Virus record (IMG/VR): IMGVR_UViG_3300037485_000015 | Location: 1 to 31,840 of that record | Source of the DNA: a virus | Reading direction: 5' to 3' (one strand) | Length of the DNA: 31,840 nucleotides | In this document: one piece after another, positions 3,930 through 11,229 of the stretch | Numbering within the stretch: the first letter of the stretch is position 1 | How the letters are laid out: the number at the start of each line of letters is the position of its first letter | Translations under genes and position numbers: made by a program | The notes under the pieces: generated by a model | Databases searched by the model: none | What the model was told of the DNA's origin: nothing | Seen by the model: only the letters and a program-made list of their open reading frames with translations

Positions 3930-4371
3930 GCTTGACTATGGTTCGCCTTATTTCGCGGAACTCTAGGGGCGCACCGTCTGCCCCTGTCACCTCGTGCTTT
4001 TGAGTTTCTGCCCATCGCATCTGGGTCTTGCTCCACCAGATTGCCGCGGTGGTGTCTCCAGCCATAACTTTGCTAAACAGGGTCTTGCCTACTTGGGCGT
4101 TGGCTTTGGCCTTGCCTGATTGCAGCTCTGCGCTGAAGTGTGCTCGTAGCGTATCAACGCTGATGCCATCCCGCACCAGTGCGCCTATCTGGTCAATCGG
4201 CAGTCCGTAGCCTGACAGGGCTTCTACCTGTTTGCGCTCGGCTGGTGAAGGTTCGAAGGCTGGTCTGCCTGCCCCTTCACGAGCACCGCCATAGTTTGGG
4301 TCGTGCGCTTTTTCTGGCACGATTTTTGTATTCTTGCTTTTAAGAATGGGTTTTTCAAGTTTAGCTGCCAT
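3922..4371 (-). CDS. terminase small subunit
   Basis: 149 residues. The small terminase recognises the packaging site and regulates the large subunit. The N-terminus is basic with a GGAREGAGRP motif (about 28-37) that is frequent in this family. A helix-turn-helix region follows (YGLPIDQIGALV, then GISVDTLRAHF, about 54-79). The C-terminal half has the family feature of repeated alanines and tryptophans (KVMAGDTTAAIWWSKTQMRW). It overlaps the start of the large subunit by 8 bases and the end of the methyltransferase gene by 11 bases. The pac sequence it would bind is not recognisable; in P22 pac lies within the small terminase gene. Confidence 0.9.
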   Translation of the reverse strand: MAAKLEKPILKSKNTKIVPEKAHDPNYGGAREGAGRPAFEPSPAERKQVEALSGYGLPIDQIGALVRDGISVDTLRAHFSAELQSGKAKANAQVGKTLFSKVMAGDTTAAIWWSKTQMRWAETQKHEVTGADGAPLEFREIRRTIVKHD

Positions 4372-5593
4372 TTGTAACCTCCGCGAAAGGTTGTCCGGTT
4401 TCTGCGTGTGTTGCTATTTTGCCTGTAAAGTCTTGCCAGCGCTTGATGATGACATCGCAATATTTAGGGTCTAATTCCATCAAATACCCGTGCCTACCGT
4501 GCTTTTCTGCCGCCAACATAGTTGTCCCGCTGCCTCCAAACAAGTCCAAAACAATATCCCCGCCCTTAGTGTTATTCAGCATTTGATACTCAAACAACGC
4601 CACTGGCTTCATGGTGGGGTGCTCTCCATTACGTGATGGCTTGTCAAACTCCAATATTGTGGTTTGTTTGCGGTCTGTGGCCCACAGGTGGCCTGCTCCG
4701 TCCTTCCATCCATAAAGGCATGGTTCGTGCTTCCAATGATAGTCTTGCCGCCCCATCACCAAGCTGGACTTCTTCCAGATCAAGCATTGACGCACCTGCC
4801 AGCCAGCGTCTTGGCAAGCCCCACGGAAGTTATAGCCCTCTGAGTCGGCGTGCCAGATGTAAAACACTGCGCCCTTTTTCATCACTGTGTCGGCAGTCAC
4901 AAATGCATCACGCAAGAACTGCCTGAACTGATCGTTGCCCATGCTGTCGTTCTGAATTGTTAGTTTTTCCTTAGTCCCACCCTCATAGGCCACGTTATAA
5001 GGCGGGTCGGTCAACAACATGTCAACCCCCCCCCCATTTGTAAGTTTGGAGACAGCATCCACGTTTGTTGAGTCCCCGCACATCAGCCTATGCTTGCCAA
5101 GCAGCCAAACATCACCAAGCACCGTGACTGGCTGCTCTGGCACTTCAGGCACGGCATCTTCATCTGTCAGGCCAGGCTCTATCTGCTCAGGCGTCAAGGC
5201 TTCTATCTCTTCTGCCGTAAAACCCGTCATGTCCAAGTCAAAGCCCAGTTCGCCAATCTCGCCCAGCTCCAGCGCCAGCATTTCATTGTCCCAGCCTGCA
5301 TTCATCGCTAATTTGTTGTCTGCCAGCACATAAGCCCGTTTCTTGGCATCGCTCCAGCCTTTTGCCACCATTACAGGCACTTCTGCCATTTTTAGCTTTT
5401 GGGCTGCCAATGTGCGCCCATGTCCTGCAATGATGCCGCCCTGTTCATCCACCAGCACCGGAGTTGTCCAGCCCCACTCTTTGATGCTTGCCGCAAGCTG
5501 ACTAACTTGTTCATCAGAGTGAGTCCTAGCATTTCGGGCGTAGGGAATGAGTTTATCAATGGCCCATTTTTCGACTTTATCTGCTGGGTTCAT
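4361..5593 (-). CDS. ParB-domain fused beta-class N6-adenine DNA methyltransferase
   Basis: 410 residues from the ATG at 5593; a longer reading to 5635 runs through a terminator hairpin, and AAGGAA sits just before 5593. Residues 1-135 form a ParB/sulfiredoxin-type domain (GGIIAGHGR, 52-60). The rest is a methyltransferase with catalytic motif IV TDPPYN (195-200), a TRD-like middle, HPTMKP (325-330) and the SAM-binding LDLFGGSGTT (349-358). The order IV before I indicates the beta class. It probably methylates adenines in phage DNA; protection from host restriction is the usual role. It is the first gene of the terminase-portal block. A run of ten G on the coding strand (5026-5035) lies just before motif IV, so a one-base slip would remove the catalytic half. 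Confidence 0.95.
   Translation of the reverse strand: MNPADKVEKWAIDKLIPYARNARTHSDEQVSQLAASIKEWGWTTPVLVDEQGGIIAGHGRTLAAQKLKMAEVPVMVAKGWSDAKKRAYVLADNKLAMNAGWDNEMLALELGEIGELGFDLDMTGFTAEEIEALTPEQIEPGLTDEDAVPEVPEQPVTVLGDVWLLGKHRLMCGDSTNVDAVSKLTNGGGVDMLLTDPPYNVAYEGGTKEKLTIQNDSMGNDQFRQFLRDAFVTADTVMKKGAVFYIWHADSEGYNFRGACQDAGWQVRQCLIWKKSSLVMGRQDYHWKHEPCLYGWKDGAGHLWATDRKQTTILEFDKPSRNGEHPTMKPVALFEYQMLNNTKGGDIVLDLFGGSGTTMLAAEKHGRHGYLMELDPKYCDVIIKRWQDFTGKIATHAETGQPFAEVTNGS
5026..5035. repeat. ten-base G/C homopolymer inside the methyltransferase gene
   Basis: Ten C on the plus strand, ten G on the coding strand. It encodes three glycines and the first base of a valine codon, a few residues before catalytic motif DPPY. 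It is long enough to slip during replication. Confidence 0.95.
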
Positions 5594-5602
5594 GGTTTCC
5601 TT

Positions 5603-5624
5603 AAAAAAAAGGGGCCGAAGCCCC
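5603..5624 (-). terminator. intrinsic terminator with UUCG loop between early-left operon and late block
   Basis: On the minus strand a perfect 5-bp stem GGGGC/GCCCC closes a TTCG tetraloop with a C-G closing pair, followed at once by eight T. It lies 27 bases past the stop of the HNH/Ref-like gene and 10 bases before the methyltransferase ATG. It should therefore stop early-left transcription and insulate the methyltransferase-terminase genes unless read through or antiterminated. Confidence 0.9.
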
Positions 5625-5651
5625 AAGGCTGGCAACTGCTTGTCAGCGCCC

Positions 5652-7503: not shown

Positions 7504-7606
7504 GTAGATCACCAGTGGCGTAGAGGGCGGCGCTGATTTGCTCAAAGGTGTATCGCTGTCCTTCACGGGCGCTGTCCAAAAGTTTGTTTGCTAATTCACG
7601 ATTCAT
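7331..7606 (-). CDS. small helical protein, N-terminal half credible, C-terminal half may be out of frame
   Basis: 91 residues starting at 7606. The first 35 residues (ELANKLLDSAREGQRYTFEQ, from residue 4) look like a typical short helical phage protein ending in a TGDL motif. From about residue 37 the frame becomes G/A/S-rich, while the +1 frame (7309-7503) becomes protein-like. Its stop overlaps the rusA ATG as ATGA, which argues that the frame as written can be translated. The start overlaps the end of the P-like gene by 11 bases. Function unknown. Confidence 0.55.
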   Translation of the reverse strand: MNRELANKLLDSAREGQRYTFEQISAALYATGDLHDPMRGERMEEAAQGQGRAAGQGESAELVAASESRHSPDSWPGWSRYLDCRNEQAAT

Positions 7607-8015
7607 TGCTTTTTACCTTTCCAGCAAAAGACTGGCGCAACTCAGCCAACTTTGCAAGTGCTTGGTTTTTGATAGCTTCAGCTTGGTCTATCTCTGCCTG
7701 AGTGAATTGTTTTGTAATCATGGTGTGTTGCTTTTCAGGAATCCTCGGGCCATTGTTGCAAGTCAATCGGAAAGCAACTGCCGAAGGAATGAAGGTTGGC
7801 GGCAAGTGCTCCAAAGCGTAATCCAAGCTAGGCTTGTAGGTCAAAAACCGACTTAGCTCTTTTGCCCAAACATTCCGCACCAACTCGGGGTCGATGTTTT
7901 CCCAATGACGGGAGAACGATGCACCGTAGACAGCGCCCATATACCCAAAGATGTAGTCCAGACCTTCATCTATTGAACAAAAATCAGTTTCCAAGTAAGT
8001 TGACATTTTTGCCAC
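7596..8015 (-). CDS. replication P-like protein (probable helicase-loading partner)
   Basis: 139 residues. The middle shows the pattern of phage replication proteins found just after a DUF1376 or O-type initiator: a YGASFSRHW segment (about 30-38), VRNVWAKELSRF (about 46-57), YALEHLPPTFIPSAVAFR (about 66-83) and a cysteine (LTC). Lambda P and related proteins bring the host DnaB helicase to the origin. It overlaps the initiator gene by 32 bases and the next gene by 11, so the group is one operon. The last 40 residues form a charged helix. Assignment rests on this pattern and on synteny, not on a catalytic motif. Confidence 0.68.
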   Translation of the reverse strand: MAKMSTYLETDFCSIDEGLDYIFGYMGAVYGASFSRHWENIDPELVRNVWAKELSRFLTYKPSLDYALEHLPPTFIPSAVAFRLTCNNGPRIPEKQHTMITKQFTQAEIDQAEAIKNQALAKLAELRQSFAGKVKSNES

Positions 8016-8712
8016 CTCCTACTAATCCACGGGTTAAACCTGACATCACGGTTTGATTTGTTTGGCCTGTCTTACTCAGGCTTTTGTCTTTCACCCAATC
8101 GGCCTTAAAACCCGTCCATCCGCGCTCACAGCAGGTTTCCAAGGCAGTCTGCAGGCTGACCCCTGCTTTACGGGCTTCGCGTTCAATGCCGTCAATGGCG
8201 GTCTGGGTGACTGCGGCACGTTTTTCTTTTCGCAACCTTACAAAATCTTGCCAAACAGAATCCGTCACGCCTTCAGGCGGGGCGACTGTATTCTTCTTTA
8301 TGGTTATTGGTTTATGGTTCTTGGTTATTGGTTCTTGGTTGCCTTTTGTTTCGCTTTCGTTTGGGTTCCCAAAAATAACCGACTGGGTTTTCTTTGGCCT
8401 TCCACCTAGCTTGCCGTTGACCTTGTTAACCTCTGCTTTTTCGTGATAGCGGTCTATTTGGTCGTCACAACGTAACTGATGATGACCGTCATCCTGCAAA
8501 ACAAAGAAGTCATCAAGCACGTTTTGCAATGCACGAATATCCGACTCGGAACCCAAGCGTAACCGCCGGATAACCGTTTGGGTTTCTTTTGGTATCGGAA
8601 CTTCTTCTAAGTAGTACCAGTCAAGCAACTGGCGATAAATACCATGTTCGAGCGTTGATAGATGGCCCGTGTCCTTGCGGTAATCCGCAATATTGAAAGT
8701 GTAATAGTGCAT
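7984..8712 (-). CDS. DUF1376 replication initiator-like protein
   Basis: 242 residues from the ATG at 8712 (a TTG at 8727 is a weaker alternative). Residues 1-105 are a DUF1376 (YdaU-like) domain, starting HYYTFNIADYRKDTGHLS and ending in the basic GGRPKK. A low-complexity linker of about 35 residues, rich in N, K, E, P and T, follows. The C-terminal domain (from about 147) contains VWQDFVRLRKEKRAAVT and GWTGFKADWVK, as in other phage initiators. The linker is encoded by six tandem 7-base repeats, so by analogy with lambda O the origin may lie within the gene. It follows the Cro-like gene in the same direction, the lambda cro-O-P arrangement. Confidence 0.85.
   Translation of the reverse strand: MHYYTFNIADYRKDTGHLSTLEHGIYRQLLDWYYLEEVPIPKETQTVIRRLRLGSESDIRALQNVLDDFFVLQDDGHHQLRCDDQIDRYHEKAEVNKVNGKLGGRPKKTQSVIFGNPNESETKGNQEPITKNHKPITIKKNTVAPPEGVTDSVWQDFVRLRKEKRAAVTQTAIDGIEREARKAGVSLQTALETCCERGWTGFKADWVKDKSLSKTGQTNQTVMSGLTRGLVGGGKNVNLLGN
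8300..8341. repeat. six tandem 7-bp repeats (iteron-like), candidate replication origin
   Basis: Six copies of WTGGTTN on the plus strand start exactly 7 bases apart, at 8300, 8307, 8314, 8321, 8328 and 8335; the core is ATGGTT or TTGGTT. The period is not a multiple of three, so it is not simply a codon repeat. It lies in the linker-coding part of the DUF1376 initiator gene, the place where lambda-type phages keep their origin iterons. Confidence 0.8.
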
Positions 8713-9524: not shown

Positions 9525-9700
9525 ACGATACAGCCCTGCTCAAAGACCTGGCCTTTAAAAGCCGCGACAACCCGCAAGACCGTTTAGCTTTATATGTTGA
9601 GCTGCTTGAGGCACACATCCAAAGCCAAGATGAATTGCTGGAGACATTCAAGCAAGAACTTGACCAAATTCTTATCGAACTTACACAGGAGCAATCATGA
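9521..9700 (+). CDS. 59-aa helical protein of unknown function
   Basis: 59 residues, acidic, almost all predicted helix with coiled-coil character (ELLEAHIQSQDELLETFKQE region). It overlaps the gene before it (ATGA at 9521) and the erf gene after it (ATGA at 9697), so it belongs to the recombination operon and is coupled to Erf translation. No recognisable function. Confidence 0.7.
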   Translation: MNDTALLKDLAFKSRDNPQDRLALYVELLEAHIQSQDELLETFKQELDQILIELTQEQS

Positions 9701-10260
9701 AACAAATCGCCACCGCATTAGTCAAGGCTCAAAAAGCCTTTGGCCCTGCCCTCAAGACCAGCACCAACCCGCACTTTCGCAGCCGTTACGCAGACCTCTC
9801 GGCTTGCGTTGAGGCAGTCATTGAAGGCCTAAACGGGGCAGGTATTGCCCTGATTCAGCGCACCAGTGAAGACCTCACCGGAGTGACTGTTGAGACAGTG
9901 TTTATCCACGAATCAGGCGAGATGCTGGAATGTGGTAAGTTGCATGTCCCTGCCAGCAAGCAAGACCCGCAAGGGTACGGCAGCGCCCTGACATACGCTC
10001 GGCGCTATTCCCTGATGGCAGCTTGCGGAATTGCACCCGAGGACGATGACGGCAATGCTGGTAGCCGCCGCCCTGAGATCAAGACACCAGACATCACTGA
10101 CCACTTGCTGGCTATTGAAGGTAGCGGCAATGCAGATCAACTAAAAGAAACTTACAAAGACGCATTCGATGCCTGTCAAGGCAATCAGGCGCTTCAGGCC
10201 AAAGTCATTGAGGCAAAGAAGGCGCGAATTGAGCGTGCAAAACAGGAGACAAGAGCATGA
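9697..10260 (+). CDS. erf: Erf-family single-strand annealing protein
   Basis: 187 residues, near the 204 of P22 Erf. Erf anneals complementary single strands and circularises or recombines phage DNA. Family features: the N-terminal LVKAQKAFGPALKTSTNPHF (about 9-28), RYADLSACVEAVIEGLNGAGIA, and the hallmark QGYGSALTYARRYSLMAACGI (about 91-111). An acidic tract, DDDGN, and a charged C-terminal helix follow. It lies two genes upstream of a YqaJ/Exo nuclease, so the pair should form an Exo/annealing system like lambda Red. Start and stop both overlap neighbours by 4 bases. Confidence 0.95.
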   Translation: MKQIATALVKAQKAFGPALKTSTNPHFRSRYADLSACVEAVIEGLNGAGIALIQRTSEDLTGVTVETVFIHESGEMLECGKLHVPASKQDPQGYGSALTYARRYSLMAACGIAPEDDDGNAGSRRPEIKTPDITDHLLAIEGSGNADQLKETYKDAFDACQGNQALQAKVIEAKKARIERAKQETRA

Positions 10261-10601
10261 GCTACACCCCTGAACGCTGGCACTTCCAAGACAACACGCG
10301 CTACCAATCGCCTTGGACAACCAATCCATACAGCATTACCACAAGGAAAACTGGGGTTCACGGCACAACGATTGCCAACATCCCAAACCGCAAAACAGTG
10401 CCCGATGCAGAGCAACGAGCCAATGCCATGCTTATGGCTCATGCCCCTGAGATGCTGGAACTCTTACGCACATTTGTTGGCTGGTATTCAAATAAAGAAA
10501 AGGACAATTTCCATAAGGTTATGCCATTTAAAAATCAGCCTCCTGAAATTCAAGCCGCAATGAAGTTGATAGAGAAAACAACAGGGGAATCGTATGTCTG
10601 A
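10257..10601 (+). CDS. conserved small phage protein of unknown function
   Basis: 114 residues, mixed and basic, with an AEQRANAMLMAHAPEMLELL segment (about 51-70). That motif (E-x-x-A-N-A-x-L-x-A-x-A-P-x-x-L) recurs in many small phage proteins of unknown role. The N-terminal half is polar with several W and Y (RWHFQDNTRYQSPWTTNPY). It sits between erf and the exonuclease, with ATGA and 8-base overlaps, so it is co-translated with the recombination genes; direct involvement is only guessed. Confidence 0.75.
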   Translation: MSYTPERWHFQDNTRYQSPWTTNPYSITTRKTGVHGTTIANIPNRKTVPDAEQRANAMLMAHAPEMLELLRTFVGWYSNKEKDNFHKVMPFKNQPPEIQAAMKLIEKTTGESYV

Positions 10602-11229
10602 AGAACAAGGCACAGAATCTTGGTTTGCCGACAGACTAGGCAAAGTCACCGCCAGCCGTATTGCTGATGTCCTTGCCAAGACCAAAACGGGGTACAGCGC
10701 CAGCCGCACCAATTACATGACCCAGCTGGTGCTGGAGCGCATCACCCAGACCCGCGCTGAGTCTTACTCCAATGCGGCAATGGCCTGGGGTACTGAGCAA
10801 GAACCTTTTGCCAGAGCTTCATACGAGGCGCATACGGGACAGATGGTTGAAGAGGTGGGGTTTATACCTCACCCCGACATTGAGGCCGCTGGAGCCTCAC
10901 CTGATGGCTTGGTGGGTGATGATGGAATGGTGGAGATCAAATGCCCAGCATCCAGCACTGCCCTTGAAGTTTGGCTTTCTTACTCCCAAGGCGCAAACCC
11001 TGTTGATGCCAAATATTACGCTCAGATGCAATGGCAAATGCGATGCGCTGATCGGTCATGGTGTGATTACGTGGTCTTTGACCCACGGATGCCAGCCAAG
11101 GCGCAGTTGTTTGTTTACCGAGTTGAGCGCAATGCCGAATGGCTCAAGATCACGGAAGAAGAAGTCCTGAAGTTTTTGGCAGAAGTAGATGCCAAAGTAG
11201 TCGCCCTTAAATCAATCATTGGAGAGTAA
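10594..11229 (+). CDS. YqaJ/lambda-exonuclease-type recombination nuclease
   Basis: 211 residues, like lambda Exo (226). It degrades one strand of duplex ends to give a 3' tail for Erf. The active site is visible: ASPDGLVG with Asp104, then VEIKCP with Glu114 and Lys116. The spacing of 10 and 2 residues is the same as in lambda Exo (D119, E129, K131). The N-terminal GKVTASRIADVLAK (16-29) and the YYAQMQWQMRC (141-151) motif are also family-typical. Erf upstream and the SSB-tip protein downstream complete a recombination module. Confidence 0.95.
   Translation: MSEEQGTESWFADRLGKVTASRIADVLAKTKTGYSASRTNYMTQLVLERITQTRAESYSNAAMAWGTEQEPFARASYEAHTGQMVEEVGFIPHPDIEAAGASPDGLVGDDGMVEIKCPASSTALEVWLSYSQGANPVDAKYYAQMQWQMRCADRSWCDYVVFDPRMPAKAQLFVYRVERNAEWLKITEEEVLKFLAEVDAKVVALKSIIGE

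Follow-up and report, generated by a model that had tools for sequence, protein, structure and literature searches.

The phage sequence analysed here (positions 1 to 31,840 of IMG/VR record IMGVR_UViG_3300037485_000015; the whole stretch of 31,840 nucleotides is called the window) contains a tandem array of six heptamers that is probably part of a replication origin, located in the linker, predicted to be disordered, of the DUF1376 initiator gene that the phage itself carries. Judged from sequence comparison, it is nearly certain that the array has a function at the level of the DNA. Its recurrence at the corresponding position of hundreds of related phage genes, together with DNA that is kept beyond the needs of the protein, makes a replication start site the probable function, and the best reading is a lambda O-like design with a different repeat grammar that is general for the DUF1376 family. 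The features concerned are the following:

7984 to 8712, minus strand: DUF1376 replication-initiator-like gene of 242 amino acids (MHYYTFNI...), assigned by Pfam and PHROGs matches

8452 to 8709, minus strand: N-terminal DUF1376 domain, predicted to be winged-helix-like (Pfam, AlphaFold2 model, weak fold matches)

8357 to 8389, minus strand: degenerate block of three 11-nt units, AACCCAGTCGG, TTATTTTTGGG and AACCCAAACGA, weak in the window and strong in relatives

8299 to 8340, minus strand: six heptamers AACCANN (TGGTT on the plus strand), the proposed origin element (pattern match, family-wide constraint)

8092 to 8262, minus strand: C-terminal helical domain with a GWTGFKADW motif, common to O-like replication initiators (PHROGs match, model helices)

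Read on the coding strand from 8340 down to 8299, the units are AACCAAG, AACCAAT, AACCAAG, AACCATA, AACCAAT and AACCATA. The TGGTT cores start at 8301, 8308, 8315, 8322, 8329 and 8336, exactly 7 nt apart, in agreement with an earlier reading made from the sequence only, which had claimed six WTGGTTN units at strict 7-base spacing. The pattern (AACCANN)3AACCA matches this single array in the whole 31.8-kb record, and the reversed control pattern has no match in it; ACCAANN was unusable as a control pattern because it overlaps AACCAAN arrays. Within the window no other stretch is as good a period-7 repeat and, when periods 5 to 24 are compared, no other chain of identical 5-mers is as long.

The location of the repeats within the linker of a DUF1376 protein, as claimed by the sequence-only reading, was likewise borne out. 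The gene product matches Pfam family DUF1376/YdaU (PF07120) with an E-value of 4e-26 (91.7 bits, curated cut-off 30.1), and its PHROGs matches are to primosomal protein and O-like replication initiation families, with phrog_678 covering residues 105-223 (E 2e-20). Both the N-domain and the C-terminal helical domain are modelled with confidence by AlphaFold2 on the basis of 69 relatives (pLDDT >95 over most of the DUF1376 domain, C-terminal helices at residues 151-207); the linker, about residues 102-150, which contains the heptamer array, is of low confidence and predicted to be disordered. VIA-align found weak winged-helix matches for the N-domain (Z up to 5.9, including ORC2; the DnaD N-domain lower, Z about 4), but these are generic and were not accepted as identifying a fold relative. 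For the DUF1376 protein, a Foldseek search against the PDB returned nothing below E 0.8, and a sequence search of solved structures nothing relevant. Among relatives, the PHROGs families matched comprise O-like, DnaD-like helicase loader and other replication initiation families.

Arrays of this kind were collected from viral contigs with a DNA-only pattern scan (loci from two scans, arrays counted if they had at least four cores). Among the matches listed, 151 of 165 AACCA arrays lie in sense within genes with a DUF1376-like N-domain, a proportion that describes a sample of arrays; six others begin within about 150 nt of the locus end, where the gene is possibly cut, and another eight comprise seven microsatellites outside DUF1376 genes and one array in an initiator of another family (locus L159). 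These microsatellites, found in L039, L052, L063, L106, L121 (two) and L160 (strand coordinates, for example, 4313 in L160, 4864 and 8944 in L121, and 1865 in L039), are perfect or near-perfect AACCANN repeats and differ from the DUF1376 arrays, which have two free columns. That AACCA heptamer microsatellites exist elsewhere, such as the ten AACCACC copies in L160, could suggest that the DUF1376 arrays too are functionless products of slippage spread by duplication. However, the microsatellites show little or no variation in any of the seven columns, whereas the DUF1376 arrays keep five and vary two over deep divergence and are confined, among the matches listed, to one gene family, so that this explanation is already contradicted and hardly credible.

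The recurrence of the array was also surveyed from the protein side; here the N-domain alone served as query and complete genes were taken from bacterial genomes and viral contigs. Four or more exact units, repeated every 6 or 7 nt, are present in 53 of the 78 genes from bacterial genomes and in 54 of the 66 from viral contigs. Over all 375 DUF1376 genes, a set that includes 167 fetched by the heptamer pattern itself, the count with at least four exact units is 334, compared to none of the 375 after codon shuffling; the earlier suggestion that the linker style recurs in this family was right. The usual core is AACCA, with block-wise variants CACCA (mainly in Polynucleobacter), ACACA, AAACA, AATCA, AACCG and AACTA, and some genes, for example from Massilia, Duganella, Janthinobacterium, Achromobacter and Comamonas, use a period of 6. 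Where core or period switches, the encoded linker peptide is altered completely. The further suggestion of a general design holds for hundreds of genes but not for every member: ydaU of E. coli K-12 has no heptamer array, and was for this reason rejected as a model, and of 208 relatives selected by protein, 24 show neither a heptamer nor an 11-mer array at the thresholds used.

A disordered linker that is read, nearly always, in an A/C-rich and polar sense might owe its repeats to selection on the peptide (NQEPITN/NHKPIT), with the DNA repeat as a by-product. The choice of codons contradicts this. For 189 genes selected on their protein alone, the codons of the motif N[QHR][EKQRT]P.T in the linker are almost exclusively those that spell AACCA, the background being the same amino acids elsewhere in the same genes: Asn is encoded by AAC in 142 of 143 cases (background 0.50), Pro by CCA in 138 of 143 (0.33), Thr by ACC in 135 of 143 (0.35), Ile by ATA in 60 of 60 (0.18), Arg by AGA in 16 of 16 (0.12) and Leu by TTA or CTA in 48 of 48 (0.25), while Lys is AAA in 79 of 79 and Glu GAA in 60 of 60. 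In arrays detected by period alone, with no core assumed, five columns agree at 0.98-1.00 and the other two at 0.75 and 0.62, the column rotation having been picked for the best five, which somewhat favours such a five-conserved, two-free result. Between the members of 25 related pairs, of which one member per pair had to carry the core, 10 of 700 core sites differ (1.4%), compared with 25 of 230 sites in the free columns (11%) and a fraction of 0.24 at third codon positions within the DUF1376 domain. Substitutions that alter the amino acid are therefore better tolerated than synonymous ones in the core. The codon phase of the first unit was uninformative. The peptide may even be wholly different (TQDTLHK, INQESLI, NQNQNQ) with the DNA period kept or nearly so, which leaves selection on the linker peptide as a very improbable source of the repeat.

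The same composition might also point to a role at the level of RNA or of DNA structure, since the coding strand is A/C-rich and G-poor and the opposite strand has GG every 7 nt, as might be expected of a Rho utilisation site, an unstructured mRNA segment or an other-strand G-quadruplex. Neither a Rho site nor a quadruplex needs strict spacing, however, and the 7-nt period is kept in ACACA arrays, whose cores are without YC or GG, as well as in AAACA and AATCA arrays without GG. We give this explanation very little weight. Easy opening of the DNA would suit the preferred origin: in 74 of 158 genes (15.6 expected), the 40-bp segment with the lowest duplex stability coincides with the array. As to an AT-rich tract beside the array, there is an AT excess of about 10 nt after it and no separate longer tract.

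In many relatives, a second array of about three clade-specific 11-bp units is found just upstream of the heptamers, and this second array in DUF1376 genes is new here. With a threshold of at least 17 of 22 self-matches, 138 of 375 genes have a period-11 repeat between the DUF1376 domain and the heptamers, where codon shuffles would give 0.1; for period 12, which comes next, the number is 22. Some relatives (for example L384, L377 and L298) have clearer 11-mer arrays than the window, where the 11-mers are degenerate, so that the heptamers may bear most of the function there. In 44 of the 88 protein-selected genes with both arrays, the gap from the third 11-mer to the first heptamer is 4-5 nt, a value that depends on the chosen unit start. 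The types of 11-mer differ by clade (TGCGAACGCAa, AACGNNCGTTc, AACCCAGTCGG and others), and palindromy was rejected as their common property, the excess being modest (3.15 versus 2.71 pairs). With types assigned by hand-made motifs in 83 non-redundant genes, a tree of the N-domain requires 14 changes of 11-mer type, where shuffling gives a mean of 38.7 and a minimum of 31; a tree of the C-terminus requires 36, with a mean of 39.0 after shuffling. This is compatible with recognition of the 11-mers by the N-domain; the 11-mers adjoin the N-domain, though, so that linkage alone could make their type follow its tree, and a noisy tree of mixed C-termini could also produce the contrast between the two trees.

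A similar layout was observed in initiators outside the family. The array-bearing gene of L159 (2094-3125; also L469) encodes a phrog_2447 initiator without a Pfam match. In it, five AACCAAN heptamers come after three GCGTTAGTAAC-like 11-mers, so that the layout is that of DUF1376 genes although the N-domain is different. Loci L470, L471 and L472 are relatives of L159 by their C-terminus, L471 and L472 having different N-domains; they carry other 11-mer arrays (GGATTCCGCGC, CACACTCATGA, GACACTCGCGA), followed by AACCAA hexamers in L470 and by a GTAGGA hexamer run in L472. The layout of 11-mers plus ladder may also occur in initiators whose N-domains are unrelated (L159, L470).

In several relatives the genomic neighbourhood includes further replication genes. 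A DnaB-like helicase or primase-helicase is encoded by the next gene in AbP2, Vibrio 1.137.O, ValSw3-3, Seahorse and a P. aeruginosa phage-like plasmid; in pSWBY1 the DUF1376 gene directly precedes a DnaC/IstB-like ATPase gene, and in Rac ydaU is followed by ydaV, annotated as ATP-binding. Plasmid pSWBY1 was rejected as a clean, minimal DUF1376-only replicon, as repM is also present. No helicase or loader was recognised by Pfam or PHROGs adjoining the DUF1376 gene of the window, where a 139-aa open frame without Pfam or PHROGs match (7596-8015, minus strand) stands right after it, at the place of the helicase or loader of relatives. Genes for an Erf-like annealing protein and a YqaJ-like exonuclease (9697-11229, plus strand) are divergent from the DUF1376 gene, and an open frame at 4361-5635 (minus strand) fuses a ParB-like N-terminal part with a DNA methyltransferase. 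Nine phage records, the window among them, were searched for their best period-7 repeat; in eight it is the linker array, the exception being zth2-2. The GC-skew change that the sequence-only reading would have looked for is absent at the array in the window; across phage records there is no consistent switch at the array, and the skew mostly tracks gene direction, for which reason it was discarded as origin evidence.

Constraint on the DNA reveals a DNA role, not its kind. The array might accordingly be a binding site for autoregulation of the initiator gene, or a partition or centromere-like site or a copy-control site, to which the initiator or some other protein of the phage binds, rather than the place where replication starts; the omega protein of pSM19035, which acts in segregation and regulation, binds tandem 7-bp sites, and the window encodes the ParB-like domain protein at 4361-5635. 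Yet the array is situated mid-gene and not at a promoter, goes with the initiator gene in the phages and prophages of many groups of bacteria, and occurs in the company of genes for helicases and loaders. We therefore consider such another role unlikely, though deserving of some weight, and retain the in-gene origin. As proposed by the sequence-only reading, the origin has survived the tests of recurrence, synonymous constraint, core conservation, context, architecture and low stability; what has changed is that the heptamers are often half of the structure.

Initiation at such an origin might proceed in three steps. Winged-helix-like N-domains would bind the 11-bp units as double-stranded iterons, one helical turn apart and on the same face of the helix. 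The A/C-rich heptamer ladder would then open, with one strand held by the initiator or a host factor; a single-strand role of the heptamers is favoured since a 7-bp spacing is crowded for a winged helix that binds double strands. Finally, as family matches and neighbouring genes suggest, the C-terminal domain would recruit the replicative helicase or its loader. DUF1376 initiators could in that case define a class of origins that is widespread among phages and has a two-part in-gene code, clade-specific double-strand 11-bp iterons followed by a near-universal, A/C-rich single-strand 6-/7-nt ladder, a proposal that we rate somewhat short of even. The titles and abstracts of the open-access literature on DUF1376, YdaU and in-gene repeats hold no report of this element. 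With a function in initiation, the DUF1376/YdaU family, which occurs in many bacteria in their phages and prophages and has had no known function, would gain a concrete job, its origin would be predicted to the base pair across hundreds of genomes, and the natural variants in core, spacing and 11-mer type would be material for the study of initiator-origin co-evolution inside one gene.

Among known systems, omega of pSM19035 is a ribbon-helix-helix protein that binds tandem heptads WATCACW at promoter or centromere sites. Contiguous 7-bp units with a conserved core are common to both systems, but the omega sites lie outside any initiator gene and the type of binder differs. Another is phage lambda, whose origin has 4-6 iterons of about 18-20 bp and an AT-rich tract. 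In lambda-type in-gene origins (ori-lambda in gene O, also in Stx phages), direct repeats lie in the middle of the initiator gene (PMC7466680). As in these, the DUF1376 repeats are in the linker that separates the N-domain, the presumed DNA-binding part, from a C-domain that would bind a partner, and the C-terminal part of the protein matches the O-like family of PHROGs. The differences are that the units are 7 bp long (6 in some relatives), often with 11-bp units upstream, that a long AT-rich tract is missing and that the N-domain is DUF1376. None of 39 O-like initiator candidates without DUF1376, each identified as the longest open frame close to the match in its locus, a choice that may be wrong for a few, has a period-7 array; several carry in-gene repeats of 15-24 bp, as expected for lambda-type iterons, and in Pseudomonadota candidates (L479, L482, L499, L500, L513 and others) these are tandem and resemble such iterons. 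Besides lambda O, DnaA-trios and the single-strand motifs of plasmid Rep proteins (PMC10797057) and the DnaD recognition element (PMC10201434) are precedents for the proposed mechanism; the fold of DnaD resembles DUF1376 weakly (Z about 4). Unlike oriC, the DUF1376 system has no ATPase initiator, and single-strand binding is a proposal in its case. A likeness may exist in the order of the elements, as in oriC specific double-strand sites (DnaA boxes) are followed by short strand-specific repeats where the DNA opens (DnaA-trios, with the DnaD recognition element), and the two-part code of DUF1376 genes could, as a tentative analogy, be the phage counterpart of DnaA boxes plus DnaA-trios.
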